A stretch of 20,657 bases of DNA, taken from positions 1-20,657 of IMG/VR virus record IMGVR_UViG_3300021960_000656. One strand, 5' to 3'. Positions 6,901-19,885 of the stretch are shown piece after piece; within the stretch, counting starts at the first letter, position 1, and each line of letters opens with the position of its first letter. The translations under genes and the position numbers were made by a program. The stretch is from a virus. The notes below the pieces were generated by a model, which was not told where the DNA came from, searched no databases, and worked only from the letters and a program-made list of their open reading frames with translations.

Positions 6901-7245
6901 TATGACCAATCCAGAGAAACTACTGAATTGCTTGGTGGTCGTGTGTACTACACTTCAACTGACCAACTTGGTAACTTTAGAGTAGGTTCGCAGTTTAAAA
7001 TTGACCAGGCAACTGGAACTGCTACACTAAACGCAGACGCATTTGACCTTTCAGGTTTGACTGAGTTACAACTTGGTTCTATTGGTGCTGCTATTGGTGC
7101 AACGATTAATGAATTTAGTACAGATGGTACACTATCAGGTAATTCTGATACGGCCGTCCCAACCGAACAAGCAGTTAAGACTTATGTTGATGTTAATTCG
7201 TTCTCAACTGGTAAAGCGATTGCTATGTCAATCGTTTTTGGATAA
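3919..7245 (+). CDS. Large tail fibre with five carbohydrate-binding-like modules and a beta-helix
   Basis: This 1108-residue protein is the largest in the window. Residues about 12-265 hold five copies of a W/Y-rich module, for example 'VWASGTAYKTGEVVQYGGNT' (171-190) and 'TYSAGTAYKIGETVIFSNST' (221-240). This is the 'W..GT.Y..GD.V.Y.G..Y.A' pattern of chitin/cellulose-binding type 5/12 domains. At 321 'YVSPEGLDTNPGTETLPLKT' opens a DUF1565/pectate-lyase-type right-handed beta-helix. It is interrupted by a Gly-rich insert at about 364-430, resumes with 'DTIRIQSGTYEE', and has a second copy of the insert at about 490-560. Residues about 798-880 form another known phage beta-domain ('ATGHGLNNGNKIVISGVVGM...NTFTL'). 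The C-terminus resembles that of the 183-residue fibre protein. No lyase catalytic site is evident. Ribosome-binding site: AAGGAT, 8 bases upstream. The likely role is host-surface polysaccharide binding. Confidence 0.8.
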   Translation: MADFVLGRIKFVWKGAWAGSTSYIADDVVRYGGNAFVALANHTSSAAFETDLSANPTKWQKMVGGVEYKADHADATYYKVDDIVKYGPTLWVCTTAHLSTSAVLDTTKFSVFLPGLEFEDSWAVGTQYQQGDIVTYGGYQYVAERNNIGQTPIDSGADWEVITTGYSNLGVWASGTAYKTGEVVQYGGNTYVYKVSSVAGTLPTDTAKADLLVEGVSHKGTYSAGTAYKIGETVIFSNSTYRAKIDTTAGQAPADGTDNTQWALYVKGAPSGVFTTQGDIVQQGAAGPVRLPIGRGGDRLRVNAAGNGLEYFNEDSGNSLYVSPEGLDTNPGTETLPLKTIKKACQLAQQNGISQISGLAGGTGGTPGTYRNVSITGGSSSGATADVVTDGSSVASVTIINNGTGWSEGNTATIAGASIGGASNVTFTVETITGGDTIRIQSGTYEEVFPIRIPPQVTVLGDSLRATKIEPTSGSATSVSTVTNVGANDALRTPGTYSNVLATATSGSGVGLRVTVVIDGSSAITVTPTHGGCYFAVGDTLEVADNLLGSGGAANLTFEVATLHNNNAATMFLVNNANYVSFMTFQGMTTGAVVVALDPSGAITTASPYIHNCTSVNTGSTGMLIDGKAHTAGNKSMVANDFTQINTDGKGVSVINGGRAELVSVFTYYCEKGFNAESGGVIRALNCSNAYGEYGAYATGVSANEAPDEVQLRGGQIRFQNLQGNIASATVTEGDTATGAVSGATATVIGVVQATRKLKIEGGNGRYFSPGETVNVTGGASYDFKVSTATADLIDATTVAITGATQANPVVITATGHGLNNGNKIVISGVVGMTELNTNTYYVQGATANTFTLSSSTDPAVTTDVDGSAFTAYTSGGTITPKTPTTGQTGFLFEVDSTSSLLASATSIKIGSNLQFAGDSQYYRVTAVTNTDTVNKQALLAITPERTAFAPENTEVDITKNFSNVRLTGHDFLSIGTGSFVDTNYPDAVGNTQPYDQSRETTELLGGRVYYTSTDQLGNFRVGSQFKIDQATGTATLNADAFDLSGLTELQLGSIGAAIGATINEFSTDGTLSGNSDTAVPTEQAVKTYVDVNSFSTGKAIAMSIVFG
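4439..4606 (+). repeat. Tandem module repeat with two identical 18-base segments
   Basis: The 18-mer CCGGCACTGCTTACAAAA occurs at 4439-4456 and again at 4589-4606, exactly 150 bases (50 codons) apart, inside adjacent carbohydrate-binding-like modules. Both copies encode GTAYK of the 'W..GTAYK.GE' motif. The spacing equals one module. Confidence 0.85.
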
Positions 7246-7650: not shown

Positions 7651-9018
7651 ATGTCTGGACCAATAATCGGTAGAAGGCTCGGAAGACGACAAAACAATTC
7701 TGAAATAGGAACTGTGGAGTCCATACACTCAGCAGGAGATCCTGGTAGTAAAAGAGCGAATACATACGATAATGCGTATGCAAGAAATTATGGTATTCGT
7801 ACTATGAATCAGGTGACTAATGGCATTTTTAATTCTACTTATAGAGATTTAGCTTCAGGCGGCGGCGGAGGTACAGCTAACCATCAAGTTTTTCCTAACA
7901 CAGTTAGTGGTAATGCCGAAACATTTGGCGGCGGTGCTGTCAGTGAAGCTTTTGGTGCTGGCGTTAACTATTTAAGAACTTACGATTCTGGCCATTTCAA
8001 TCAAAGTAAATATCCTTATTATACTCCTTTTTTTACAGGTAATCAAATCTCTACGCAATTGCAAAGAGGTAATGCAGGTTCAGACGGATATGGTGGTGCA
8101 AATAACCAAGGTTTTAGAGACTCAACATCACGAGCTGCTCAATGGAAATTTAGACAAGTAATTAATGTTGCTTACACAGGTGGTGGTTATAAAGACGGTT
8201 CACCTTGGAGACAAGTGCATAGAACAAACTCAGCTACACACCAAACTACAAATTTAGGTATTCAAATGGACCATCCAGGTTCTTATATTTCAGGTGCTTG
8301 TAGTGATACAACTTTCTTCTTATGGTCAACACCATCAGATAATTCACACTTTACACCTAGTGCAAGAACATCAGCGTTTCATATGTACACAGAAACAGCT
8401 AAAGCACACAATAGTGTGTTTGATACATATTCTGATAGAAACGACTCGGGTACATCATTCAAAGAAACCTTTTTATCATTTCACGGTGGTGGTGATAGAA
8501 CAGGTATGGAAGTATTTAATTTATGTACAGAATCTAGACAACAACAAACTGGTAGTGACATGAGAGGTGGCGCAGCTACTAACTCAGCCTTTTCTGATAA
8601 AGACCAAGGATATCATTGGGGCGATTCTAGTGGATATAAAGTTAATCACTCAACATTTTCTGTTTCTGGTACTACGCATTGGTCTGCTCACGGACAACAA
8701 AAAGGTATATCTTCAAAAATAAGATTAGGTTATTGTGGTAACGAAGGTTCTTACAATGGTGGGTACAATTTAAGAAGATGGAATTTAGTAACTGATACTA
8801 ACACAGGTACTTTTTCAAAATATCGTGCAAACTGTGGAGAAGAAAACTTTACAATGGGACAAGATTGGCAATATATGATTGGTAATTATGATGGTGGTGG
8901 TCAAAATAACGGAAGTTGGCTACAATATTATCACACAGATACAAGAACAGATGTCAGTGGTTTACAACCGACAGCAAATGCTGGACAATCTTCAGGTCAC
9001 TGTGGTTGGAGAACCTAA
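7651..9018 (+). CDS. Probable distal fibre/adhesin tip protein, 455 aa
   Basis: A soluble protein that is very rich in Gly, Asn, Ser, Thr, Tyr and His, with many Trp residues and a few Cys. It begins with a basic segment 'MSGPIIGRRLGRRQNNSEIG' and has a poly-Gly run at residues 70-74. Later segments such as 'HWGDSSGYKVNHSTFSVSGT' and 'YDGGGQNNGSWLQYYH' are unlike the Thr/Ala-rich shafts upstream. Such Gly/Asn/aromatic-rich composition is typical of receptor-binding fibre tips. The octapeptide RGGAATNS at 305-312 is shared with the preceding 119-residue protein. Ribosome-binding site: AGAGG, 8 bases upstream. It is the last fibre-type gene of the module. I do not recognise a named family. Confidence 0.6.
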   Translation: MSGPIIGRRLGRRQNNSEIGTVESIHSAGDPGSKRANTYDNAYARNYGIRTMNQVTNGIFNSTYRDLASGGGGGTANHQVFPNTVSGNAETFGGGAVSEAFGAGVNYLRTYDSGHFNQSKYPYYTPFFTGNQISTQLQRGNAGSDGYGGANNQGFRDSTSRAAQWKFRQVINVAYTGGGYKDGSPWRQVHRTNSATHQTTNLGIQMDHPGSYISGACSDTTFFLWSTPSDNSHFTPSARTSAFHMYTETAKAHNSVFDTYSDRNDSGTSFKETFLSFHGGGDRTGMEVFNLCTESRQQQTGSDMRGGAATNSAFSDKDQGYHWGDSSGYKVNHSTFSVSGTTHWSAHGQQKGISSKIRLGYCGNEGSYNGGYNLRRWNLVTDTNTGTFSKYRANCGEENFTMGQDWQYMIGNYDGGGQNNGSWLQYYHTDTRTDVSGLQPTANAGQSSGHCGWRT

Positions 9019-9043
9019 AAAAATTGATATAAATATCATTAGG
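9014..9043 (+). promoter_or_regulatory. Late promoter inside nested inverted repeats
   Basis: An exact TATAAATA lies at 9028-9035, 36 bases before the next ATG. It is enclosed by CCTAA (9014-9018) and TTAGG (9039-9043), and the promoter itself lies in GATAT-AA-ATATC (9026-9037). The outer left arm overlaps the TAA stop of the fibre-tip gene. The structure could end the upstream transcript while the promoter starts the next one; there is no T-run after it. Confidence 0.65.
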
Positions 9044-9071
9044 TTTAGTAATAATTAGATTAGGAATTAAT

Positions 9072-9920
9072 ATGGAAAATGAAATGAAAAATAATGATGG
9101 TGTTCTTTTAGAAAAAATGACAGACACCGAATTGGTTGAATTTGCTAACAATAATGTTGATAGTTCAGTTCGTAAATTTAAATTAAAACACTTTGTTGGT
9201 CAATCTCAACTCACACCCTTTCACCATTTAAAACAATTGTTTTTAGAATTAAGAGTAAGACAAGATTCTTATTTACATATTCAATGGGAAATTGAAAGAA
9301 AAACTTTAGAGGAAATGGTTGAGAAAGAAAAACTTGCCAATTCCACTAACAAAATTGAAAAACAATATATTCAAATTGATTTATTGCAGATTGTAAAAGA
9401 CAAGAAAAGACACGAAGACGCTCTTGTTGGTGCATTAAAAGAAAAAGATAGAATATTAGAATTGATTAGAGAGTTATGTGAGGGTCCTCAAGGTACTTTA
9501 CCAGACGGCACAAAATTGATGGATATTTTTGGTAATGAAGAGTTAGAAGAAGAATTAGAAAGACAACATTGGATTACTAGATTAGCTAAACAGGCAAGTA
9601 TGGAAATGTTGGCCTACGGCAAAATTGGTACTGGTAATATGGACGCTATCGCAATGATGGATCCTAAAGAAATTGGTGAGTGTTTACAGTTGGCTAGTGA
9701 TTATACAGTAAGAGTAGGCACAGGTATGGGGTTATTAACTGAAAAGTCTATAAATGACTTAAAATTAGGTTATATACCACCAGAAAACAAAAAAGCAATG
9801 CAACATATGGGTATTAGTAACGAGTTTTTGTCAGAAAATATGTTAGAAAATGATATAGATAAGAATAATGCTCTTATAAATAATAAGTATAAAGACTTAA
9901 AGGATAATTCAAATGGCTAA
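9072..9920 (+). CDS. Conserved phage protein of unknown function, helical, 282 aa
   Basis: A charged, mostly helical protein without signal peptide or membrane segments. Residues about 70-130 look like a coiled coil rich in Glu/Lys ('LEEMVEKEKLANSTNKIEKQ'), followed by 'KEKDRILELIRELCEGP', an acidic 'EELEEELERQHW' stretch, and a C-terminal region with 'YGKIGTGNMDAIAMMDPKEI'. The ribosome-binding site AGGA (9062-9065) lies 6 bases before the chosen ATG; a second in-frame Met at residue 5 is less well spaced. A late promoter is upstream, so it is probably made with virion proteins. It overlaps the next gene by 8 bases. I believe similar proteins occur in T4-like marine phages but cannot assign a role. 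Confidence 0.6.
   Translation: MENEMKNNDGVLLEKMTDTELVEFANNNVDSSVRKFKLKHFVGQSQLTPFHHLKQLFLELRVRQDSYLHIQWEIERKTLEEMVEKEKLANSTNKIEKQYIQIDLLQIVKDKKRHEDALVGALKEKDRILELIRELCEGPQGTLPDGTKLMDIFGNEELEEELERQHWITRLAKQASMEMLAYGKIGTGNMDAIAMMDPKEIGECLQLASDYTVRVGTGMGLLTEKSINDLKLGYIPPENKKAMQHMGISNEFLSENMLENDIDKNNALINNKYKDLKDNSNG
9873..9887 (+). promoter_or_regulatory. Possible late promoter within the upstream gene, in a small inverted repeat
   Basis: Exact TATAAATA (9875-9882) lies inside the end of the 282-residue gene, 30 bases before the ATG at 9913. This distance is similar to the other late promoters here. CTTAT (9873-9877) and ATAAG (9883-9887) flank a 5-base loop within the site. Because it is in coding AT-rich DNA, chance occurrence is possible. 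Confidence 0.5.
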
Positions 9921-10656
9921 AATACATGTATTAGTAAAACAACAAGACGCTTCAGGCAAAGGTTGGCTTGAGTCATATACGGGTTATGGTGCGTATGGCG
10001 TATTTTCTATCGCTGATGAATACCAGGATATGAGATTAGACTTGGATTCTATAGGCGCAGAAATTTTAACACCAGAAGAAGCTAAGTCTTCTATTTTTGC
10101 AGATTCTTATAGAGGTTACATCAAAATTAAATCAGGTAACGCTATTGAATCAGACTTTCCAGAATTAGAAATGTCTTCAGAAGCTACAAGTATAAAATAT
10201 GATATGACAGCTGATGACATTGCAAAAGGTGTAGCATTTAACAAATTAGTATTTAAAAAATACATTAGAGATAGATTTAACGATAAATCAAAAGATATCG
10301 TAAGTGCAAGATATGGTAAATTAGAACAACAATCTTTTGAACAACAGAAAAAAGAAGCTGAGGCTTGGACTGCTGACAACACAGCAAGTATACCAATGTT
10401 ATCAACTTTAGCAACTGCTAGAGGTATTACAGTATCAGATTTAGTATCAAAAATTAATACTAAGGTTGCTGCTTATAATTCTGCTGTTGCAAGTAAATTA
10501 GCTGAACAAAAAGTTTTGGAAGATGAAGTTGACGCATTAGTAACTATTGCAGATTGCCACGCTTGGAGACATAGAAAATTGGGTATTACAGCAAGTACAA
10601 TTCAATTAGAAGAAGACGCTACATTAGGCGCTCCAGCTACAAAAATTATATTTTAG
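9913..10656 (+). CDS. Phage structural/fibre-accessory protein with DUF4376-like C-terminus
   Basis: A 247-residue soluble protein. The N-terminal half is mixed ('GWLESYTGYGAYGVFSIADE'). Residues about 137-215 form a helical segment: 'FEQQKKEAEAWTADNTASIP', 'LSTLATARGITVSDLVSKIN', 'KVAAYNSAVASKLAEQKVLE'. This matches the DUF4376-type pattern common at the ends of phage tail-fibre or fibre-assembly proteins ('QE..A..Y.AD.......L..LA.ARG....L...I..K...Y......L.G....L'). The ribosome-binding site AAGGA lies about 9 bases before the ATG, and the gene overlaps the upstream one by 8 bases. It is the last gene before the metabolic operon. A role in fibre assembly is suggested by the domain and context but not shown. 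Confidence 0.65.
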   Translation: MAKIHVLVKQQDASGKGWLESYTGYGAYGVFSIADEYQDMRLDLDSIGAEILTPEEAKSSIFADSYRGYIKIKSGNAIESDFPELEMSSEATSIKYDMTADDIAKGVAFNKLVFKKYIRDRFNDKSKDIVSARYGKLEQQSFEQQKKEAEAWTADNTASIPMLSTLATARGITVSDLVSKINTKVAAYNSAVASKLAEQKVLEDEVDALVTIADCHAWRHRKLGITASTIQLEEDATLGAPATKIIF

Positions 10657-10658
10657 TT

Positions 10659-10676
10659 AGTTTCTTTTTAGAAACT
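10659..10676 (+). terminator. Possible weak stem-loop terminator
   Basis: AGTTTCT-TTTT-AGAAACT forms a perfect 7-bp stem with a 4-base loop, 3 bases after the preceding stop codon. The stem is AT-rich and is not followed by a T-run, so termination is uncertain. It marks the boundary between the virion module and the metabolic operon, and no late promoter follows it. Confidence 0.35.
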
Positions 10677-10695
10677 TACAACTTGGTTTTATATT

Positions 10696-12378
10696 ATGTT
10701 TAGTGTACCTTTAAACCCCAAATTATCGCCGGATCAATTTGACTATTTTTTAAATTTTCTTAAAAAATATAAACATCTAATTTATGATGTTTATTTTACT
10801 AGTAGAATACCTCCATTCACACAAGACGCAATGGGAGATGTATTCAATGAAAATCAGTTTGATTTAATAAGTGAAAATGCCTTGATTATATCAAAGGCAA
10901 CAGGCATTCCTTTATCTGCTACTTTCAATAATATTGAAGTACCGCCCACAGATGAAAATTTAGACACATTTATAAAACATTTTAAAAAACTATATGACGC
11001 TGGCGTTAAGATAGTTACTATTCCACACACACTATGGATGTTAACAGGCCGTTTTCAAAAGGCATATCCAGATGTGGTGGTGAAAAATACCATATTAAGA
11101 AATACGCAAAGAGCTAATGAAGTTATTAAATGTGTAGAAGCAGGTTTTCATTACATAAACTTTGATAGAGATTTGATGAGAGATGAAGATACTTTAAAGC
11201 GTATGCAAGACGCCAAAAAGTATTGTAAAGATAAACTAGGTGTAGATGTTAAGTTTAGTTTATTAGCAAATGAAGGCTGTTTTGGAAACTGTCCTGTACA
11301 AGACGAACACTTTTTATATAACAATACAAGAAGTAAAGGCAATCAACCTACTTACTTTCAAACTAACATAAGTTATTTTTCTTGCCCTAAATGGGAAGAA
11401 CAAGACCCAGCATATCATTGGCGTATCGCAAACTTTCCTCCATTCCGAGATGAATGGGATAGATTGTTAGGTTATATTGATGTGGTAAAAATGCATGGTA
11501 GAGAAAGTGTTTCTCGTTTATTTGAAACTATGAAAATCATAGAAAAGTTTGATAGAGGTGATGAGATATTATACACTGATTATGAAAACTTTATACGAGA
11601 TAATAAATTTGCACAAAAAAGAATTGATGTATGGAAAACAACCATAAGAAACTGTAAATTTGATTGTTGGGATTGTAACATATGTGATAAGATTGTAGAA
11701 AAGAATAACAGTGTAAATCTAATTGATACTGTTAAAAATGCATTAATCAAGTCTAAAAAAGAAGAATCTAAATTGAGTAAGGCAACACTTGATATACCTG
11801 GTCTTACATCACACAAAGTAAAACACTTCATTAATAATATATGCGAGTTACCTGATTGTAAATATTTGGAAGTAGGTGTTTATCAAGGGGCTATGTTTAC
11901 CTCTGCTTTAGAGGGCAATGATTTAGTTGCAAGTGCTGTAGATAATTGGTCAGATACACATAATGTGCCAATGAGAGATATTGATATACACGCTGAAAAA
12001 GAAGATACTAAACAAGTATTCTTAAAAAATATTAGACCATATGTTAGTGGTAAATCTATTACTATCTTAGACACGGAAGATTCTTTGAGTAAAATGCCTG
12101 TTAAAGCAAATGTTGTACTCTATGATGGCGAACATACCGAGGAAGCTCATTATTCCTTCTTAACTAAATATAATAGTAAAATAGATAATACTTTCTGTTT
12201 AATTATTGATGATTGGAATTGGTTACAAGTAAGACAAGGTACAGAAAAGTCAATAGAAGATTTAGGTTATAAAGTATTATTTAAAGAAGAAATATTTACA
12301 AAGGGTGAAGACCCTACTGATTATTGGAATGGGTTAGGAATTTTTGTAATTGATAAAGGTGTTTTGAATAGAATATGA
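10696..12378 (+). CDS. Two-domain protein: U32-like Cys-rich (Fe-S?) barrel fused to class I methyltransferase
   Basis: Residues 1-340 resemble the peptidase-U32/UbiU-UbiV superfamily TIM-barrel: 'VVVKNTILRNTQRANEVIKC', 'GFHYINFDRDLMRDEDTLKR', then 'SLLANEGCFGNCPVQDEHFL', a pattern like 'L.NEGC...CP.R..H' of U32-like proteins. Cysteines C195, C199, C230, C320, C324, C327 and C330 could hold an Fe-S cluster. Residues 365-560 look like a SAM methyltransferase of the Methyltransf_24 type: 'YLEVGVYQGAMFTSAL' (390-405, glycine motif I), 'AVDNW' (414-418), 'VVLYDGEHTEEAHYSF' (473-488) and 'LIIDDWNW' (502-509). Together they would pair a possible oxidative or Fe-S step with methyl transfer on an unknown substrate. 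There is no clear ribosome-binding site. It is the first gene of the operon and its TGA overlaps the next ATG. The methyltransferase half is fairly sure; the U32 half less so. Confidence 0.65.
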   Translation: MFSVPLNPKLSPDQFDYFLNFLKKYKHLIYDVYFTSRIPPFTQDAMGDVFNENQFDLISENALIISKATGIPLSATFNNIEVPPTDENLDTFIKHFKKLYDAGVKIVTIPHTLWMLTGRFQKAYPDVVVKNTILRNTQRANEVIKCVEAGFHYINFDRDLMRDEDTLKRMQDAKKYCKDKLGVDVKFSLLANEGCFGNCPVQDEHFLYNNTRSKGNQPTYFQTNISYFSCPKWEEQDPAYHWRIANFPPFRDEWDRLLGYIDVVKMHGRESVSRLFETMKIIEKFDRGDEILYTDYENFIRDNKFAQKRIDVWKTTIRNCKFDCWDCNICDKIVEKNNSVNLIDTVKNALIKSKKEESKLSKATLDIPGLTSHKVKHFINNICELPDCKYLEVGVYQGAMFTSALEGNDLVASAVDNWSDTHNVPMRDIDIHAEKEDTKQVFLKNIRPYVSGKSITILDTEDSLSKMPVKANVVLYDGEHTEEAHYSFLTKYNSKIDNTFCLIIDDWNWLQVRQGTEKSIEDLGYKVLFKEEIFTKGEDPTDYWNGLGIFVIDKGVLNRI

Positions 12379-13115
12379 AGACTATACAATTTTTTAGTAC
12401 AGTACCAGGAGTTGCAGAAGCATTTCCTATTGTTGAAGCAAAAAACTATAAACCTGAATGGACAAAATCAGCCATAAAAGATTTAGTTGATAAAAAAGGT
12501 AAAGTTACTAATAATGATACTGGTCGTTTTACTCATTTAGCATATTGTCCTGGTATATTTGACTTATTTAAAACAGGTTATATTGTGCCTATGTGGTATG
12601 ATATTAATATAAAAACTGAAAAAGATAAACCAGGATTTTCTTGGACGGTGGCAGATAAGGCCTTTAGTTCTTTAAGTGATATGAAGTTTATAGATACGCA
12701 TAATGATAGAATAACAAATTTTATACCTAAAAGAAAAGGTACAATAGATAATATAGTAAAAATTAATACACCTTGGAATGTAATTGTTCCTGATGGTTTA
12801 AAACTTTTGTGTTTACCTATAAGTTATCCTGATAATTTTGATTATGAATCAACAACTGGCATATTAGACCCTAGTCATTCAAGTGAGATAAATATACAAA
12901 TGAATTGGAATGTTGAGAATGGTGAAAGATTGATTAAAGCAGGCACACCTTTAATGCACATTATTCCTTTGTCTGAGGAAATGTTTAACCTAGAAGTTAG
13001 AACAGCTAACGAAAAAGATTTACAGTGGGTTAATATTTTAAAATATACAAAAACATTTTCTTTTTCAACAACAAGACAATTGGTGCAGAAATTATATAAG
13101 AGGTTTTTTAAATGA
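12375..13115 (+). CDS. Conserved protein of unknown function (DUF6065-like?)
   Basis: A 246-residue soluble protein overlapping the previous gene (ATGA) and the next one (ATGA), so it is translationally coupled on both sides. Notable segments are 'HLAYCPGIFDLFKTGYIVPM', 'INTPWNVIVPDGLKLLCLPI', 'TGILDP' and 'NIQMNWNVENGERLIKAGTP' followed by 'LMHIIPLSEE'. This is a beta-rich pattern I associate with an uncharacterised family seen in phages and bacteria (possibly DUF6065), often beside Fe(II)/2-oxoglutarate oxygenase genes. No metal-binding triad can be read with confidence. The call of family is tentative and the function unknown; membership in the same pathway as its neighbours is inferred from the overlaps. 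Confidence 0.5.
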   Translation: MKTIQFFSTVPGVAEAFPIVEAKNYKPEWTKSAIKDLVDKKGKVTNNDTGRFTHLAYCPGIFDLFKTGYIVPMWYDINIKTEKDKPGFSWTVADKAFSSLSDMKFIDTHNDRITNFIPKRKGTIDNIVKINTPWNVIVPDGLKLLCLPISYPDNFDYESTTGILDPSHSSEINIQMNWNVENGERLIKAGTPLMHIIPLSEEMFNLEVRTANEKDLQWVNILKYTKTFSFSTTRQLVQKLYKRFFK

Positions 13116-13720
13116 TACAAGCTGTTTTTGCAACTCCTGTTTATAAATCTGATAACTTGTACAGTCTAACAAAAGAACAATTAGATTATTTAAGCAAATT
13201 ACAAACAATTAAAAATAAAGGTGGTAATTACTTAACTACAAGAAAAGATATAATGGATGATGAGTCTATGAAAGACTTTAAACATTGGTGTTTACTTAAT
13301 GTCACAGCATTTGCTAAATCATTAGGTGCTAGTGATAAAACAAGTTTTTACATAACACAATCTTGGATGAATAAAAATCCACCACATTCATATCATCATA
13401 CACATATGCACCCTAATAGTATTTTTAGTTGTATCTATTATGTAGAAGGTGATACATGCCCTACATATTTTTACAGATATGATGATAGAACATCATTTGG
13501 TAATTTTGCTTTTTATGATGGCGATAAAGGTAGTAATGTTTATACGGCTACAAAAGTAGGTGTGTTAAATGAACCTGGCCGATTGGTTATATTTCCGTCA
13601 TCAATGGTACATGATGTTGATAAGAATGAAGGCACGAAAGAAAGAATTACAGTATCGTTTAATACATTTGTAAGAGGAGAAATGGGTGATCCTGAAAATA
13701 GTAATCACCTAATTATTTAA
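13112..13720 (+). CDS. Putative Fe(II)/2-oxoglutarate oxygenase, type A (TIGR02466-like)
   Basis: This 202-residue protein has the hallmarks of the TIGR02466 family of putative 2OG-Fe(II) oxygenases: start 'MIQAVFATPVYKSDNL', core 'SWMNKNPPHSYHHTHMHPNS' (84-103) followed by 'IFSCIYYVEGDT', and 'PGRLVIFPSSMVHDVDKNEG' (155-174) then 'KERITVSFNTFVRG'. Candidate iron ligands are H98/H100 in the first motif and H167 in the second; R178 would bind 2-oxoglutarate. The family is known for the double-stranded beta-helix fold; substrates are mostly unknown. It overlaps the previous gene (ATGA) and is followed after 1 base by the next. It pairs in family with the product at 14560. Confidence 0.75.
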   Translation: MIQAVFATPVYKSDNLYSLTKEQLDYLSKLQTIKNKGGNYLTTRKDIMDDESMKDFKHWCLLNVTAFAKSLGASDKTSFYITQSWMNKNPPHSYHHTHMHPNSIFSCIYYVEGDTCPTYFYRYDDRTSFGNFAFYDGDKGSNVYTATKVGVLNEPGRLVIFPSSMVHDVDKNEGTKERITVSFNTFVRGEMGDPENSNHLII

Positions 13721-13721
13721 T

Positions 13722-14054
13722 ATGGCAGATAGATTTAGAGAAAGTAACGGTATACCTCATGTAATTAGATTGGATGGTAATGCTCAATGGGAAATTACTA
13801 ACGAGTTTAAAAGAGATGGTGGTAAAAGATATTGTCATATTACAAAATCTCCTTTTAAGTATGAATATTATTTTTACTTTTCTAATAGAAGAAGTGTTTT
13901 TGATTGGTTGATGGATGTAAAAGGACCAAAGATGCCTAGATGGTTACTTCCTGATGAAGTATACCAAGAAGTTAAATTTAAAACATTAAGTTATAAACAA
14001 GACTCATACGGCAAAAGATTGTATGTGAGAAGTCCTGATAACTATGACAAATAA
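13722..14054 (+). CDS. Small protein of unknown function, 110 aa
   Basis: A basic, aromatic-rich soluble protein with 'SPFKYEYYFYFSNRRSVFDW' and 'GPKMPRWLLPDEVYQEVKFK' as its most striking parts. There is no signal peptide, membrane segment or recognised motif. The start follows the upstream TAA by one base (TAATATG) without a Shine-Dalgarno site, and the end overlaps the next oxygenase gene by 11 bases. It is therefore locked into translation between two oxygenases. It could be an accessory or substrate-binding partner, but nothing in the sequence shows that. Confidence 0.5.
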   Translation: MADRFRESNGIPHVIRLDGNAQWEITNEFKRDGGKRYCHITKSPFKYEYYFYFSNRRSVFDWLMDVKGPKMPRWLLPDEVYQEVKFKTLSYKQDSYGKRLYVRSPDNYDK

Positions 14055-14544
14055 AAACTATACTATAATAGATGATTTTCTTCCTGAAGACGATTATAAA
14101 AAAATTTATGAGGTCATAACTGATACAGGTTTTGATTGGCACCTTACAGACAAAATAACCTTAGAACAAGAAGATAAAGATATTTTCTTTTATCTTTGTC
14201 ATGTGTTTTATAATCAAACTTCTTTATATCAAAGCAGTTTTTTTGAATTAATATTTCCATTATTAAAAAAGATAGACCCTAAAGCTTTAATGAGAGCAAA
14301 AGCAAATCTTTATTTAAACCAAGGACTAGGTGTAAAAGAACATGCTAGTCATACAGACTATCCCTTTACACACAAGGGTGCCTTATACAGCCTAAATACT
14401 TGTGATGGTTATACAAAGATAGGTGAAGAAAAAATACCTAGTGTGGCAAATAGAATAGTATTTTTTGATCCGTCTGAACATCATTGTAGTACATCTTGTT
14501 CAGACACCAAAACAAGAATGAATATTAATATTAATTATTTTTAG
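14044..14544 (+). CDS. Putative Fe(II)/2-oxoglutarate oxygenase, type B (prolyl-hydroxylase-like)
   Basis: This 166-residue protein begins 'NYTIIDDFLPEDDYKKIYEV', the usual opening of 2OG-Fe(II) oxygenases of the prolyl-4-hydroxylase type. Residues 99-106 contain H103-T-D105, the HxD iron motif, followed by 'GALYSLNTCDGYTKIG'. The distal histidine is H146 or H147 in 'FFDPSEHHCSTS', and R158 is placed to bind 2-oxoglutarate in 'RMNININYF'. All key residues of the family are present. It is closely related to the product at 15152 (both have 'SVANRIV.FD' and 'CDGYTK'), so it arose by local duplication. It overlaps the upstream small gene by 11 bases. The substrate is unknown. Confidence 0.8.
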   Translation: MTNKNYTIIDDFLPEDDYKKIYEVITDTGFDWHLTDKITLEQEDKDIFFYLCHVFYNQTSLYQSSFFELIFPLLKKIDPKALMRAKANLYLNQGLGVKEHASHTDYPFTHKGALYSLNTCDGYTKIGEEKIPSVANRIVFFDPSEHHCSTSCSDTKTRMNININYF

Positions 14545-14559
14545 ATTGAGAGATTTATT

Positions 14560-15150
14560 ATGCATAAAGAAAAATTATTAAACTTATTTCCTACACCCTT
14601 AATTCTAATGGAAAATGTCTTTACAGACCAATTAGATTTTTTAGAAGGTTATTTAAAAGAAGAATTAGAAAAAACAGGTCATAAAAGAACACCTACCCAA
14701 AATGTAGATTCAACATTTCATTTAGACACTAATCTATTTGAGAAAGAAGCTATAAAACCTATATCTGATTTCATCTATCAAAAAGCTGTAAACTTCTTAA
14801 CTCACTTACAATATAGTGATTCGTATATTAACAAGTGTAAATATAATGAGATGTGGTTTAATATTAGTGATGAAAATGATTTCTTATTCCCTCATCATCA
14901 CGGATTTTGTTTAGTGTCAGGTGTATTTTATATAAAAGCACCAGAGAAATCAACTATAACTTTTTATGACCCCTCATATTTTTATCCTAATCATATAGAA
15001 GTTAAAACACCAAATTTATACAATCAAAAAGATGTAAATTTAGATTGTAAGGCAGGCAACTTATTAATGTTTAGAGGTGATACTTTACACGGAAATACAT
15101 TACAACCAAAAGGTGAGAAAATTGCTATTTCTTTTAATTTAGGATTATAG
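14560..15150 (+). CDS. Putative Fe(II)/2-oxoglutarate oxygenase, type A' (TIGR02466-like)
   Basis: A 196-residue member of the same family as the product at 13112: 'LLNLFPTPLILMENVF' at the start, 'EMWFNISDENDFLFPHHHGF' (97-116), then 'LVSGVFYIKAPE', and 'AGNLLMFRGDTLHGNTLQPK' (165-184), then 'GEKIAISFNLGL'. Candidate iron ligands are among H112-H114, with H177 as the distal one. The position usually held by a 2-oxoglutarate-binding Arg ('RI.ISFN') is Lys (K187), which may alter cosubstrate binding or may be tolerated. It lies 15 bases after the type-B gene and 1 base before its second copy, completing an A-B-A'-B' order. The substrate is unknown. Confidence 0.75.
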   Translation: MHKEKLLNLFPTPLILMENVFTDQLDFLEGYLKEELEKTGHKRTPTQNVDSTFHLDTNLFEKEAIKPISDFIYQKAVNFLTHLQYSDSYINKCKYNEMWFNISDENDFLFPHHHGFCLVSGVFYIKAPEKSTITFYDPSYFYPNHIEVKTPNLYNQKDVNLDCKAGNLLMFRGDTLHGNTLQPKGEKIAISFNLGL

Positions 15151-15151
15151 T

Positions 15152-15649
15152 ATGCATAAAGTAATTGATGATTTTTTAGAACCAGAAGATTTTATTTTTG
15201 TTCATAACTTGATTATGAACGAGCCTTTTCCTTGGTTTTATATGGATTCTTATAGAGAATCAGGATTAGAAAAAGACAAAACAAATAATTTTTCATATCA
15301 TCTTCATATGTTGTATGATAATAATGTGCCTTCTTCACCACATTTTGATAATATTCTTCCTCTTATTTTTAATAAAATAAAAATGAAAACTTTAATACGA
15401 GTTAAAATAAACAGTTATACAAGAGAAGATAAGTTAGTTGAACACGATTTTCATACAGATTACGATTACCAAAACAACGGTGCTGTTTTTAGTATAAACA
15501 CTTGTGACGGTTATACTAAATTAGAAGATGGTACAAAAATTCAAAGTGTCGCAAATAGAATAGTTTTATTTGACGCTTCTAAACCACATTGTAGCACTAA
15601 TACTACCAATCAACCTAGGAGAGTTAATATAAACTTTAACTATTTTTAA
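15152..15649 (+). CDS. Putative Fe(II)/2-oxoglutarate oxygenase, type B' (paralogue of 14044 product)
   Basis: This 165-residue protein has 'HKVIDDFLEPEDFIFVHNLI' at the start, the HxD motif H101-T-D103, 'AVFSINTCDGYTKLEDGTKI', the distal H146 in 'DASKPHCSTNT', and R156/R157 before 'VNINFNYF'. Thus the full Fe(II)/2-oxoglutarate site can be read. It is plainly homologous over its length to the product at 14044; they keep the same core but have diverged in the N-terminal half, which in this fold helps choose substrate. AGGA about 8 bases upstream of the ATG serves as the ribosome-binding site, and the stop is followed after one base by the permease gene. Confidence 0.8.
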   Translation: MHKVIDDFLEPEDFIFVHNLIMNEPFPWFYMDSYRESGLEKDKTNNFSYHLHMLYDNNVPSSPHFDNILPLIFNKIKMKTLIRVKINSYTREDKLVEHDFHTDYDYQNNGAVFSINTCDGYTKLEDGTKIQSVANRIVLFDASKPHCSTNTTNQPRRVNINFNYF

Positions 15650-15650
15650 T

Positions 15651-16685
15651 ATGATAGATTTTATTTTAAACGGACAGGTGTATCTTTTTCTAATTATCTT
15701 TGTAATGATGATTGCAGGTATGATTAAAGAACATCAATTATTTAAAGATTTGTTTTGTTTCTTTGAACAAAGTTTAAAAAGTAAAAAGGCTGTAGTTACA
15801 ATAGTTTCTGCTTTGACTGGATTATTACCCATTAAAGGTAGAGTTACAGTTAGTGCAGGTATGTTAGATACTTTAGCACCACCTAAAGGAAGTCCAGGTA
15901 GAGAAAAGTTTGGACCTATTGATTATCTTGCAACACATCATTATTACTTTTGGTCACCATTAGAAAAAACAGTTATATTACCAATGGCTGCTTTTGGTTT
16001 ATCATACACAGCTTTTATGTCAATTATGTGGCCGCTATTAGCAATTTCTATTGCTTGGATTTTATTTTATATAATCTATATGGTAGATGAAAAAGATATA
16101 CAATTAGGTGATTGCACAACAAAAATTAAAGTTAGTAGAATTACGAGATATGTTTTACCTTATATAGTAGGTGTTTTAGCTATTATTGCAGGTATTGATT
16201 TCTTATGGGCATTTGGCTCTCTAGTATTATATTATATGGTTGTTACAAGGACATTTGATTTTAAGAAATTAATTGGATATGTAGATTGGAAACTTGTAGG
16301 TTGGGTTGCTGCTATTATTGCAGTCGCCAATTATGCAAATGCACATACAAATGAAATAAAAGAGTTTTTAGGTAATACAGGATTAATTATTACTGAACCA
16401 ACAGGTTTCATTGGTCTATCATTAATTGCATTTACAGCTTCTTGGTTTTTAGGCTCTAGTTCCAGATTTGGTGCATTTACAGTTATCTTATCTTCTATAT
16501 ATGGAATAGAATATTTACCATGGTTTTTTGCTGTTGACTTTGCAGGTTATATGTTATCACCAATGCATAAGTGCGTAGCAATCGGTAAAATGTATTTTGG
16601 AACAAAACTATCATATTATGTCAAAATATTAGGCATATGGGCAATTGGTGTGATAGCTACAGCTGGAGTAATGTTATATGCTTGA
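15651..16685 (+). CDS. Inner-membrane permease, DUF401-like
   Basis: A 344-residue polytopic membrane protein with about nine or ten hydrophobic helices and no cleavable signal. The paired conserved segments 'LTGLLPIKGRVTVSAGMLDT' (55-74), 'THHYYFWSPLEKTVILPMAA' (95-114), 'SWFLGSSSRFGAFTVI' (264-279) and 'FAGYMLSPMHKCVAIGKMYF' (297-316) match the layout I know for DUF401 proteins ('..LLPMPGG....AP', 'N...RH.WEY.WPLYP', 'GF.G.LLSP.HLC...T..YF'). That family is grouped with ion/organic-anion transporters and is uncharacterised. It is slightly shorter than usual bacterial members (about 400). It overlaps the heme oxygenase gene by 8 bases, and there is no Shine-Dalgarno site. A transported substrate cannot be read; iron, bilin or organic acid are options from context only. 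Confidence 0.6.
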   Translation: MIDFILNGQVYLFLIIFVMMIAGMIKEHQLFKDLFCFFEQSLKSKKAVVTIVSALTGLLPIKGRVTVSAGMLDTLAPPKGSPGREKFGPIDYLATHHYYFWSPLEKTVILPMAAFGLSYTAFMSIMWPLLAISIAWILFYIIYMVDEKDIQLGDCTTKIKVSRITRYVLPYIVGVLAIIAGIDFLWAFGSLVLYYMVVTRTFDFKKLIGYVDWKLVGWVAAIIAVANYANAHTNEIKEFLGNTGLIITEPTGFIGLSLIAFTASWFLGSSSRFGAFTVILSSIYGIEYLPWFFAVDFAGYMLSPMHKCVAIGKMYFGTKLSYYVKILGIWAIGVIATAGVMLYA

Positions 16686-17253
16686 TATAAAAGAATTGAC
16701 AATGGAACATCATAAAAATGCTGAGAGGCAAGAGTTTGTAAGAATTCTTATGTCTGGTGAAATTGATGAAAGACTATATGCTACCTACTTATACAATCAA
16801 CTTCAATGTTATTCTGTATTAGAAAAGTATGGTCATCATAATGGATTGTTTAGACAAACACCTGGTTTAGAAAGAGCTGAGAAAATACATTACGATTATT
16901 CTAAACTTTGGCACAACACAGAAAAAACTCCTATTATAACACAAAGTACAAGAGAATATGTAACGCACATAGAAGCGATACAAGATGACGCACACCTACT
17001 TTATGCACATATCTATGTAAGGCATATGGGTGATTTAAGAGGTGGTCAAATGATTAAAAAGAAAACTCCAGGTGCTAATAGATACTATACATTTAGAGAT
17101 AAAGAAGTTATTGAGTTTGGTAGAATTATTAAAGAAAATATAAACAGATATTTGAACATATATGAACACAGTGTTTTACCTGAAGCACAATTATGTTTTG
17201 ATTTTGCAACAAGACTCTTTAAGGAGATGAAAGAAATAAATGATTTGGGATAG
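16678..17253 (+). CDS. hemO/ho1: Heme oxygenase (biliverdin-forming)
   Basis: Heme oxygenase cleaves heme with O2 and electrons (usually ferredoxin) to biliverdin IX-alpha, CO and Fe(II). The start region 'LDIKELTMEHHKNAERQEFV' carries the proximal heme ligand in the H-x-x-A-E pattern (H12), as in 'LR.GTK..H..AE' of cyanobacterial HO1. The distal helix 'HIYVRHMGDLRGGQMIKKKT' (111-130) holds the signature 'Y.R.LGDLSGGQ'; GDLRGGQ is 118-124. With 191 residues it is shorter than typical HO1 (about 240), mostly at the C-terminus, yet both heme-contact helices are present. It overlaps the permease gene by 8 bases and the bilin reductase gene by 14 bases. That order, heme oxygenase then bilin reductase, is the biosynthetic order and fixes the pairing. 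Confidence 0.92.
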   Translation: MLDIKELTMEHHKNAERQEFVRILMSGEIDERLYATYLYNQLQCYSVLEKYGHHNGLFRQTPGLERAEKIHYDYSKLWHNTEKTPIITQSTREYVTHIEAIQDDAHLLYAHIYVRHMGDLRGGQMIKKKTPGANRYYTFRDKEVIEFGRIIKENINRYLNIYEHSVLPEAQLCFDFATRLFKEMKEINDLG

Positions 17254-17923
17254 ATTAATTCAGTGTAAAGATGATATTATAGAAATTTTAGATTTAACCT
17301 GTTCAGAATATAATGAGCCAGGTATGAGTAGATTTAACAATGAAGAGTTTGGTTGGGTCAATAGAACTTGGAAGAATGAGTATATACGAAGAGCTCATGT
17401 AGATGTTGTTGATGTAAGAGAAAGTAAAGGACTTTGGATGATGCATGTATGTTTATTTCCAGAGTTGACAAATGGAGGACCGATTTACGGTTTTGATGTG
17501 ATTGCAGGAAAAAATAAAGTTACTGGTGCATTCCACGATTTTAGTCCACTATTACAAAAAGACCACCCTTTGACTAATTGGTTTCTAAATGAAACTAAAT
17601 GGTTTAAACCGAGTAAAGAGAGAGAATTGCCAGATTGGGCTAAAGCTATTTTCAGTGGTGGAATGATAGCAGCCGGAAATGTTACTGAAGAAAAAGAATT
17701 AAATCAGATATGTATTATGGCAACAGACAATCTGGCAAACTATATTGATAAGATAAGAAATCACGCAGGTGAGGCTGCGAAAGAGGATGTTATAAAGGCA
17801 CAAAACTATTACTGTGAACATCAACAACAAAACCCTCACACACCTAGGGTTATGCAATCACTAGGTTTACCGGAAGAAGACATTAGTTTGTTCTGTAAGG
17901 ACAACCTTTTTCCTAAAATATAA
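17240..17923 (+). CDS. pcyX: Ferredoxin-dependent bilin reductase, PcyX/PcyA type
   Basis: A 227-residue bilin reductase that would reduce biliverdin IX-alpha with ferredoxin electrons. The core 'GGPIYGFDVIAGKNKVTGAF' (79-98) then 'HDFSPL' matches 'P.FG.D.V...G.....I.DLSP' of PcyA; D86 aligns with the catalytic Asp105 of Synechocystis PcyA, and H53 ('RRAHVDVVDV') with His88. The position of PcyA Glu76 appears to be N41, so this is not a standard PcyA. The tail 'YYCEHQQQNPHTPRVMQSLG' matches the conserved 'YC..Q..N..T..VL...FG'. PcyX, described from uncultured marine phages, makes phycoerythrobilin; that product is inferred here. The start at 17240 has AAGGAG 13 bases upstream (17221-17226) and overlaps the heme oxygenase end by 14 bases. 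Confidence 0.85.
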   Translation: MIWDRLIQCKDDIIEILDLTCSEYNEPGMSRFNNEEFGWVNRTWKNEYIRRAHVDVVDVRESKGLWMMHVCLFPELTNGGPIYGFDVIAGKNKVTGAFHDFSPLLQKDHPLTNWFLNETKWFKPSKERELPDWAKAIFSGGMIAAGNVTEEKELNQICIMATDNLANYIDKIRNHAGEAAKEDVIKAQNYYCEHQQQNPHTPRVMQSLGLPEEDISLFCKDNLFPKI

Positions 17924-17926
17924 ATA
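17919..17926 (+). promoter_or_regulatory. T4-type late promoter (TATAAATA) overlapping the pcyX stop
   Basis: Exact TATAAATA, 18 bases upstream of the porin ATG. The TAA stop of the bilin reductase (17921-17923) lies inside the octamer. It gives the porin gene its own late start, separate from the metabolic operon. No inverted repeat encloses it. Confidence 0.8.
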
Positions 17927-17944
17927 GAACGAACGGAGAATAGA

Positions 17945-19006
17945 ATGAAAAAAATAATAATAACTCTATTTCTGTTAATGTCCTCTTTGGCTTACGCTGA
18001 TGAAAACAAGATAACAGACCTAGAAAAGCGAGTTGCTGAATTAGAGAGTAACAAATTAGATTTACCTAAATCATTGTTTATAAATGGTGAGATTGAAGCT
18101 TACTATGATGACAAAACTTACGATAGTGGTTATGATAGTAGAGCAGAATTACAAGTTGGCGTAGAACAAAATGTAAACACACCATATATTAACTATGTTG
18201 GCGGTTCAGCTGTATATGATACACATTACGCATTAGACACAACACAAAACAATACACTTGTTGAAAAACAACTTGCTTTTGGTGGTGACAAATGGAGATT
18301 GTATATGGGTGAAACAGACGCACAAAGATATGGTTTTGCAAAAACACCTAAAATCAGTGCTCCAATTATCATTACACAACCTAACAATAGAATAGAACAC
18401 AATGAAAAAACTGTACTATCTTTTGGTGGTTTTGACTTTGACAATCAGTTTGATATGGATTCATACAGACTAGATAGAGATACTCCTTACGGTGCCAGTA
18501 TTGGTTGGGACAACAAAGGTGATACTTTGTACTATAACGCAACAGTTAGTTTAATGGGTTATGCTGAAGTTTCATATATGGCAATTGACTCAAAAGCTAC
18601 AGGTGCTAATTACACTAAAGACACAAAACAAGAAGGTTGGTCAATTGGTGGTTCTTTATATCGTTGGGATATTCCAATGATGTGGGGTGTTGAAAAATGG
18701 GACGATAAAGACACAGGCGTTCAATCATCTAAAGACAGATACGACTATGGTGTTTTATACAGTGTTACAGACTCAACATATGTTACAGCACACAGAACTG
18801 AGAATGATGACCTAGGTTACACAGGTAATTATTACGGTGTGGTGTATAATTTGTACACAGATAAAGACGCAACTAAGCGTCCTGATAAAAGAGATGGTAT
18901 AGAAATGGGTGTATATTACCACGAAAAAGGCGGTAAATCAGTCTATACAAATCAGGATTATACAGATACGCAACAGGTATTAGCGTCTATTAAGTATAAA
19001 TTTTAA
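17945..19006 (+). CDS. Outer-membrane beta-barrel (porin-like) protein
   Basis: A 353-residue protein with a classical signal peptide 'MKKIIITLFLLMSSLAYADE' (cleavage likely after AYA, residue 18), then a short coiled coil 'ITDLEKRVAELESNKLDLPK' (23-42). The rest is alternating amphipathic strands with aromatic girdles (for example 'GDTLYYNATVSLMGYAEVSY', 'NYYGVVYNLYTDKD'), ending 'LASIKYKF' with the C-terminal Phe that the Bam machinery recognises. The lack of a plug domain argues against a TonB-dependent receptor. N-terminal coiled coil plus barrel is seen in DcaP-like and LbtU-like porins; which family applies is not clear. GGAG lies 6 bases before the ATG, and it has its own late promoter. 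Possible roles are nutrient or iron uptake, surface masking of the phage receptor, or envelope change before lysis. Confidence 0.8.
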   Translation: MKKIIITLFLLMSSLAYADENKITDLEKRVAELESNKLDLPKSLFINGEIEAYYDDKTYDSGYDSRAELQVGVEQNVNTPYINYVGGSAVYDTHYALDTTQNNTLVEKQLAFGGDKWRLYMGETDAQRYGFAKTPKISAPIIITQPNNRIEHNEKTVLSFGGFDFDNQFDMDSYRLDRDTPYGASIGWDNKGDTLYYNATVSLMGYAEVSYMAIDSKATGANYTKDTKQEGWSIGGSLYRWDIPMMWGVEKWDDKDTGVQSSKDRYDYGVLYSVTDSTYVTAHRTENDDLGYTGNYYGVVYNLYTDKDATKRPDKRDGIEMGVYYHEKGGKSVYTNQDYTDTQQVLASIKYKF

Positions 19007-19041: not shown

Positions 19042-19069
19042 CCTTTTCTTATAAATATACCAGAAAAGG
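19042..19069 (+). promoter_or_regulatory. Late promoter in the loop of an 8-bp inverted repeat that covers the gp13 ribosome-binding site
   Basis: CCTTTTCT (19042-19049) and AGAAAAGG (19062-19069) form a perfect 8-bp stem; the 12-base loop contains TATAAATA (19050-19057). The right arm contains AAGG of the Shine-Dalgarno site AAGGG (19066-19070), 8 bases before the neck gene ATG. A transcript reading through from the porin gene would hide this site, while a transcript begun at the late promoter lacks the left arm. The stem could also end the porin transcript. Confidence 0.75.
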
Positions 19070-19078
19070 GTATTATAT

Positions 19079-19885
19079 ATGGCAACTCCAGCAACAAGAG
19101 AAACATTAAAACAGTATGCTTTAAGAGCATTAGGTAAGCCTGTCATTGAAATCAATGTTGATGATGACCAGCTAGAGGATAGACTGGATGAGGCCTTACA
19201 ATATTTCGCACAATATCATTATGATGGTATTAAAAGAGCGTACTTAAAATATCAGTACACAAGTGCTGATAAAGCAAGAATTACTGGTAATTCATCTGAA
19301 TCTGTTACTAAGAATTCAGTTACTACAACTTGGGCAGAACAAAACAATTTTATTGTTGTTCCTGAATCTGTAGTATCAGTTGTTAACATTTTTCCATTCT
19401 CAGATAAAGGTAATCTAAACTTATTTGATGTTAGATATCAATTAAGATTAAATGACCTATATGACTTTTCATCTACAAGTGTAATCAACTATGACATTGT
19501 ATTAAGACATTTAGATTTCTTAGACCATATTCTAGTTGGTGAAAAACCATTAAGATTTAATCAACACGATAACAGACTACACATTGATATGGATTGGAAC
19601 AACGACTTACAAGTTGGCGAGTATCTAGTTATTGAGTGTTATAGAAAATTGGATCCTGAACAATTTACGGATGTGTATAACGATATTTTCTTAAAAAGAT
19701 ATGTAACTGCTTTGTTTAAGAAACAATGGGGTGCTAACTTATCAAAATTCAATGGAGTAGCAATGATTGGTGGAGTAACTTTAAATGGTCAACAACTATA
19801 TTCTGAAGCAATACAAGATGTGGAAAAATTAGAAACAGAAATTAGAAGCACATTTGAATTAAATCCAGCAATGCTAATAGGATAA
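19079..19885 (+). CDS. 13: Neck protein, T4 gp13-like (head completion)
   Basis: This 268-residue protein begins 'MATPATRETLKQYALRALGK' followed by 'PVIEINVDDDQLEDRLDEAL' and 'QYFAQYHYDGIKRAYLKYQ', the conserved start of gp13 neck proteins in T4-like marine phages. In T4, gp13 and gp14 close the filled head and form the site where the tail joins. The length is a little below T4 gp13 (about 309), as usual for cyanophage homologues. Further conserved parts are 'NFIVVPESVVSVVNIFPFSD' and 'LVIECYRKLDPEQFTDVYND'. It has its own late promoter and is followed 6 bases later by the gp14-like gene, the same order as in T4. It marks the return to the structural core after the metabolic operon. Confidence 0.9.
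   Translation: MATPATRETLKQYALRALGKPVIEINVDDDQLEDRLDEALQYFAQYHYDGIKRAYLKYQYTSADKARITGNSSESVTKNSVTTTWAEQNNFIVVPESVVSVVNIFPFSDKGNLNLFDVRYQLRLNDLYDFSSTSVINYDIVLRHLDFLDHILVGEKPLRFNQHDNRLHIDMDWNNDLQVGEYLVIECYRKLDPEQFTDVYNDIFLKRYVTALFKKQWGANLSKFNGVAMIGGVTLNGQQLYSEAIQDVEKLETEIRSTFELNPAMLIG

Follow-up and report, generated by a model that had tools for sequence, protein, structure and literature searches.

Heme oxygenase and bilin reductase genes (HemO and PcyX) occur together in phages of non-photosynthetic hosts, where their purpose is not agreed. The 20,657-base linear virus record IMGVR_UViG_3300021960_000656 (34% GC; called the window below, meaning the whole stretch analysed) raises this question in an extended form, as the pair stands at the end of a run of ten forward genes (10696-17923) which also encodes a predicted iron-sulphur (Fe-S)/methyltransferase fusion protein (FUS), four 2-oxoglutarate (2OG)-Fe(II) oxygenase-like proteins and a permease (PERM). 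Do these genes form one pathway? A preliminary description, made from the sequence alone, proposed them as a candidate iron/oxygen island. We find that the arrangement is real, recurring and partly known, and that it is not one iron pathway. With somewhat better than even confidence, we place the window in the hypervariable host-recognition cluster (HRC) of a T4-like phage, as its downstream half, where two mobile modules abut.

The close packing of the run is as previously claimed. Its junctions are, in order, -4, -4, +1, -11, +15, +1, +1, -8 and -14 bases (a range of -14 to +15), and it is followed at +21 by a gene for a 353-aa porin-like protein and then, at a further +72, by gp13 and by gp14. 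On the 5' side of FUS lie tail-fibre genes and then three conserved phage proteins, T1417, T1409 and T1604 (Table 1).

Neighbourhoods were compared across 305 loci, dereplicated to 225, taken from IMG/VR scans and phage records; they were fetched with the window's own genes as anchors, keeping the best 80 matches, and the frequencies below therefore describe near relatives. As an anchor, gp13 matched more than 600 contigs. The search for the same gene order that the preliminary description had proposed was successful: FUS-P7084-OGa-SML-OGb-OGc-OGd-PERM-HemO-PcyX-gp13, without the porin-like gene, repeats in three contigs (L090, L091 and L285) and is partly present in five fragments (L092, L109, L186, L268 and L279), and shorter islands are found without OGb-OGd (L093-L098) or without PERM (L099 and L101). 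The arrangement is neither a product of chance nor unique to one assembly. PERM was present in 50 of the 59 FUS contigs with 5 kb visible downstream, and HemO in 17. The 50 PERM contigs carried FUS in 43 cases and HemO in 16, and among 48 HemO-PcyX contigs with 6 kb visible upstream, FUS was seen in 13, PERM in 17 and no recognised 2OG gene in 19. T1417 lay upstream of FUS in 53/59 contigs, and T1409 (56/59) and T1604 (54/59) were near it.

Changes of state on the PcyX tree numbered at least 16 for a 2OG gene next to HemO, at least six for the porin-like gene and at least five for PERM. In the gp13-anchored set 2OG genes and HemO-PcyX were unassociated, both within 3 kb (3/13 vs 1/23; Fisher p 0.12, resting on small numbers) and at 6 kb (Fisher p 1.0, also on small numbers), so co-occurrence beyond expectation, which the preliminary description had suggested looking for, was not seen. 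Related phages carry HemO-PcyX and the oxygenases independently, which is the outcome that the preliminary description had itself named as refuting its reading. A single island is unsupported because of the 19 HemO-PcyX contigs lacking a 2OG gene, the 16 or more changes on the tree, and the occurrence of FUS and PERM mostly without heme genes.

Each module has a known counterpart. Upstream, the cyanophage row T4-GC_347/352/353/354 (S-H25, S-RIM2 and metaG-MbCM1) shares with the window the conserved triad and FUS, the latter at 40-45% identity, and in two of these three phages FUS is followed by a 2OG-like protein and PERM; relatives of OGd sit between FUS and PERM in cyanophages. The row differs from the window in having fewer 2OG genes and no HemO-PcyX at this place, so that S-H25 and metaG-MbCM1 show triad-FUS-2OG-PERM without HemO. 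Gene calls look fragmented in metaG-MbCM1 (12730-13193 and the 8229-8531 region), with adjacent pieces belonging to one T4-GC cluster, perhaps through assembly frameshifts.

Downstream, HemO-PcyX beside gp13 is a published cassette of marine phages (PMC11480375), with phycoerythrobilin, iron and CO as its expected products. In both the window and the cultured Pelagibacter phage Mosig EXVC030M (MT647606) the pair overlaps, adjoins gp13 and has 2OG genes nearby, and the proteins are 83% (PcyX), 72% (HemO) and 91% (gp13) identical. Mosig has the order 2OG genes-hemO-pcyX-gp13 without FUS or PERM, whereas the window has FUS to PERM ahead and the porin-like gene behind. A further difference is that the window has no valaS gene. 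As Mosig carries several genes annotated as 2OG oxygenase or "endonuclease V" beside hemO-pcyX, the earlier remark that no description of this combination was known is true only in part.

The site itself is of the type described as the HRC of T4-like pelagimyophages and cyanomyophages (PMC7029224): both are hypervariable, contain tail fibres and end at neck genes, and in the window the variable region lies among tail fibres and terminates at the neck gene gp14. That paper places the start of the HRC after VrlC, which falls outside the window; it stresses glycosyltransferases, which are not among the families detected in 7651-19006, and the portions of it used here do not name a FUS-2OG-PERM module. 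The phage is most likely a T4-like pelagimyophage with a SAR11 host, the host being proposed from synteny with Mosig alone. One tail-fibre protein (3919-7245) has five stretches of CBM_5_12 carbohydrate-binding repeats (E 2.3e-25).

The coding strand of the window carries six copies of the T4 late-promoter octamer TATAAATA, and the other strand none. Excepting a copy at 9875 within T1409, the closest ahead of the island is that at 9028..9035. Among relatives, an octamer was counted if located up to 80 nt upstream of a gene or up to 40 nt past the called ORF start, for which the background is ~1%; by this measure it accompanies gp13 in 145/168, FUS in 0/76, PERM in 0/76, PcyX in 0/99 and HemO in 5/91. 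Four of these five HemO cases are the four contigs in which an antisense gene precedes HemO (4/4). Since the octamer precedes gp13 but not FUS, PERM or PcyX, late transcription that starts in the upstream cluster probably reads through into HemO-PcyX. Sigma-70 promoters and hairpin terminators in the window were near chance numbers, and the CTAAATA variant of the late promoter was rarer than chance.

The two modules meet at an overlap between the PERM stop and the HemO start, which is of identical 8 bases (in the window ATGCTTGA) in ~17 contigs and of 10 bases in three more, among which the PERM and HemO proteins have diverged. HemO is probably coupled to PERM in translation through this overlap. 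PERM also stands near HemO-PcyX without FUS at a second site, in six contigs (L244, L249, L259, L263, L264 and L291) with the order 2OG gene, GMP reductase-type gene, PERM, outer-membrane-type protein (absent in some), Hsp20 and HemO-PcyX. These form a single PcyX clade and are therefore counted once, as one event. Downstream of HemO-PcyX in L244, the contig to which Pfam was applied, lie the curli genes csgF/csgG together with curlin repeats. The overlap and this second site are what survives of the proposed grouping.

Phylogenetic placement differs between the two sides of the junction. With PcyX the window groups with phages lacking FUS (support 95/93), and most FUS-PERM contigs are in a separate clade (100/98); the FUS tree puts it among the island contigs (support 100). 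Because PcyX and FUS place the window in different groups, an exchange after PERM is suggested, and it remains a suggestion because a joint PcyX clade was not rejected by the AU test (p 0.149). Four things can be read directly from the DNA: that the modules exist, that they are distributed separately, where the promoters lie, and the overlap.

HemO is a normal PF01126 member by sequence (E 2.4e-19; the GDLxGGQ motif is present as GDLRGGQ), in agreement with the preliminary description. PcyX matches PF05996, the FDBR fold family (E 3e-18), and its best structure match is PcyX 5OWG (E 6.5e-130 over residues 1-226). Asp55, the PcyX-specific residue, is conserved as Asp in 104/105 relatives; PcyX is reported to yield phycoerythrobilin, whereas PcyA yields phycocyanobilin (PMC11480375).

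The model of FUS (mean pLDDT 89) predicts a TIM barrel with Fe-S cysteines that is joined to a domain of O-methyltransferase type, which fits the Cys-rich fusion proposed before. The N-terminal barrel resembles the U32 protein Mk0906 (5d88; E 1.8e-6, TMt 0.66), the C-terminal domain is O-methyltransferase-like, and seven cysteines are invariant (C195, C199, C230, C320, C324, C327 and C330). Its folds resemble those of U32 hydroxylases (TrhP, RlhA and UbiU/V) and TrmR-type O-methyltransferases, but it differs from these in its Cys pattern and in carrying both domains in a single phage protein. True membership of U32 was rejected: the fold is similar, but no match to PF01136 was found, and E193, C195 and C199 of FUS are spaced differently from the E162/C170/C177 pattern of TrhP. 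A radical-SAM enzyme was also rejected, as there was no family match and CX3CX2CX2C comes late in the domain. FUS was found solely in phage DNA. A cellular source had been considered for two contigs binned in Dehalococcoidia and Euryarchaeota metagenome-assembled genomes (L309 and L310), which carry FUS with T1409/T1604; these are phage pieces because T1604/T1409 are neighbours.

Four 2OG-type proteins are present, as had been proposed, and they differ in how much of the expected motif they keep. Two match PF13759 (1.5e-19 and 1.5e-10), and OGb and OGd belong to phrog_274 (~2e-43) with weak PF13640 matches (0.18 and 0.009). The HxD/E...H triad plus Arg is full in OGb and OGd; OGa has HxH...H...R, and OGc HHH...H without the Arg. 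PHROGs names phrog_274 "DNA endonuclease V", a name copied in the Mosig annotation; the label is probably wrong, because the members here have the 2OG-oxygenase motif HxD...H...R. The permease was likewise recovered (DUF401, E 4.4e-11). P7084 has a fold of the dUTPase/dCTP-deaminase type, three members of its alignment matching PF00692 (best E 3.2e-4) and the best Foldseek match having E 3.4e-4; P7084-like genes occur in several copies near FUS-PERM in L300, L139 and L159. Searches of families and profile libraries gave no known family for SML. The 353-aa protein looks like an outer-membrane barrel from its signal-like N-terminus and C-terminal F, but the porin assignment made earlier is not backed by a significant match in family searches, and phage records returned no match. 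Contig L009 aligns with the window up to 17923 and resumes at 19046, and the porin-like gene is therefore a clean insertion.

Table 1. Features of the window around the ten-gene run, with positions counted from its first base.
Feature	Position	Strand	Remarks
T1417 (phrog_1417)	7651..9018	+	first of conserved triad upstream of FUS; tandem copies in some relatives
TATAAATA, T4-type late-promoter candidate	9028..9035	+	upstream of T1409
T1409 (phrog_1409), conserved phage protein	9072..9920	+	
T1604 (phrog_1604), conserved phage protein	9913..10656	+	
FUS (phrog_1458)	10696..12378	+	N-terminal U32-like TIM barrel, predicted Fe-S cysteines; C-terminal O-methyltransferase-like domain
P7084 (phrog_7084)	12375..13115	+	dUTPase/dCTP-deaminase-type fold
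OGa, 2OG-Fe(II) oxygenase-like	13112..13720	+	PF13759/TIGR02466; HxH...H...R
SML, small protein	13722..14054	+	present in island relatives
OGb, 2OG-like (phrog_274)	14044..14544	+	HxD...H...R
OGc, 2OG-like (PF13759)	14560..15150	+	HHH...H; Lys at usual Arg position
OGd, 2OG-like (phrog_274)	15152..15649	+	HxD...H...R
PERM, DUF401 permease	15651..16685	+	~9 hydrophobic segments
PERM stop/HemO start overlap, ATGCTTGA	16678..16685	+	8 bases
HemO, heme oxygenase	16678..17253	+	PF01126
PcyX, predicted biliverdin to phycoerythrobilin reductase	17240..17923	+	Asp55 present
TATAAATA, late-promoter candidate for porin-like gene	17919..17926	+	spans pcyX stop
Porin-like outer-membrane protein	17945..19006	+	optional insertion between pcyX and gp13
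TATAAATA, late promoter of gp13	19050..19057	+	kept in 145/168 relatives
gp13 neck protein	19079..19885	+	right border of variable cluster

Under the two-module reading, module 1 would be FUS-(P7084 + 2OG oxygenases)-PERM, tied to the three conserved phage genes at 7651-10656. FUS and the 2OG proteins would probably hydroxylate and methylate a late target, whether a small molecule or a protein of the virion or envelope; PERM would probably transport a small organic anion. In module 2, to judge by homology, HemO would open heme to biliverdin, releasing Fe(II) and CO, and PcyX would reduce the biliverdin to phycoerythrobilin using ferredoxin. The ten genes would probably be read late in infection from the upstream TATAAATA promoters, and the enzyme activities, the targets, the late timing and any benefit to the phage are the parts of this proposal that we infer. 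Several points weigh against it: the locus counts are not a random sample of phages, the targets given for FUS, the 2OG proteins and PERM are guesses, the AU test leaves the mosaic as a suggestion, and both the overlap between PERM and HemO and their pairing at a second site argue that some of module 1 may act together with module 2.

That last point can be taken further, with PERM-HemO-PcyX as a functional unit whose permease, taken from the FUS module, would move heme, a bilin, an iron ligand or a co-substrate of the heme step. The overlap, kept in ~20 contigs despite diverged proteins, and the closeness of PERM to HemO-PcyX near the curli genes argue for such a unit; but HemO is absent from 34/50 PERM contigs and PERM from 31/48 PcyX contigs, the second site represents one event, and overlapping genes are frequent in phage genomes, so that we hold this to be unlikely, though not negligible. 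We consider it less likely still, and improbable, that the run is one iron pathway, in which Fe(II) released from host heme by HemO loads the phage 2OG oxygenases and Fe-S enzyme and the permease and porin move a substrate. All of its parts do stand in one gene run whose order is common to several contigs, HemO does free iron, and a role of phage HemO in supplying iron has been discussed and proposed (PMC11480375). In addition, host iron-transport genes are raised by a pelagiphage that carries a 2OG gene (PMC12753301). However, HemO-PcyX is distributed independently of the 2OG genes, the porin, FUS and PERM, many 2OG genes are common in T4-like marine phages, including phages and places without HemO (PMC9146016, PMC3037559), and PcyX would be superfluous for iron release.

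Another reading makes FUS a wobble-uridine enzyme that unites a TrhP-like hydroxylase with a TrmR-like methyltransferase and would tune translation late in infection. Beside the barrel match to 5d88, its profile matches YrrM/TrmR 5zw3 (E 0.0038), among four U32 proteins from E. coli TrhP scores best against FUS (P 0.0014, with seven control proteins at 0.1 or weaker), and a B. subtilis operon holds trhP1, trhP2 and trmR together (PMC6599085). We nevertheless think it very unlikely, as PF01136 is unmatched, the TrhP-essential E162, C170 and C177 have no equivalent by spacing, the hhalign probability is just 17%, both folds also work on small molecules, and a search of the window found no tRNA gene. 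The least probable explanation, and one that we reject, is a chimeric assembly of two unrelated phage pieces at PERM/HemO: the break in contig L007, at window position 16684, falls right on this junction, and the window stands apart from most FUS-PERM contigs in the PcyX tree, but the gene order and the exact overlap repeat across samples, in many contigs that are independent of one another.

Relative to the literature cited, three things are new: the conserved module of FUS, 2OG genes and PERM, the overlap of PERM with HemO, and the late read-through that HemO-PcyX probably undergoes. T4-like phages of the sea and fresh water commonly carry the FUS-2OG-PERM block, and its proteins are mostly labelled "unknown function" in the libraries searched. 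A bolder and doubtful extension is that this widespread, phage-only, late module, tied to the conserved triad in the HRC, performs an undescribed hydroxylation/methylation, and that HemO-PcyX has taken over its permease to form a translationally coupled unit. If HemO-PcyX is indeed promoter-less, late and coupled to a permease, a role in early host takeover would become less likely, and the pair would have a concrete partner that can be tested.

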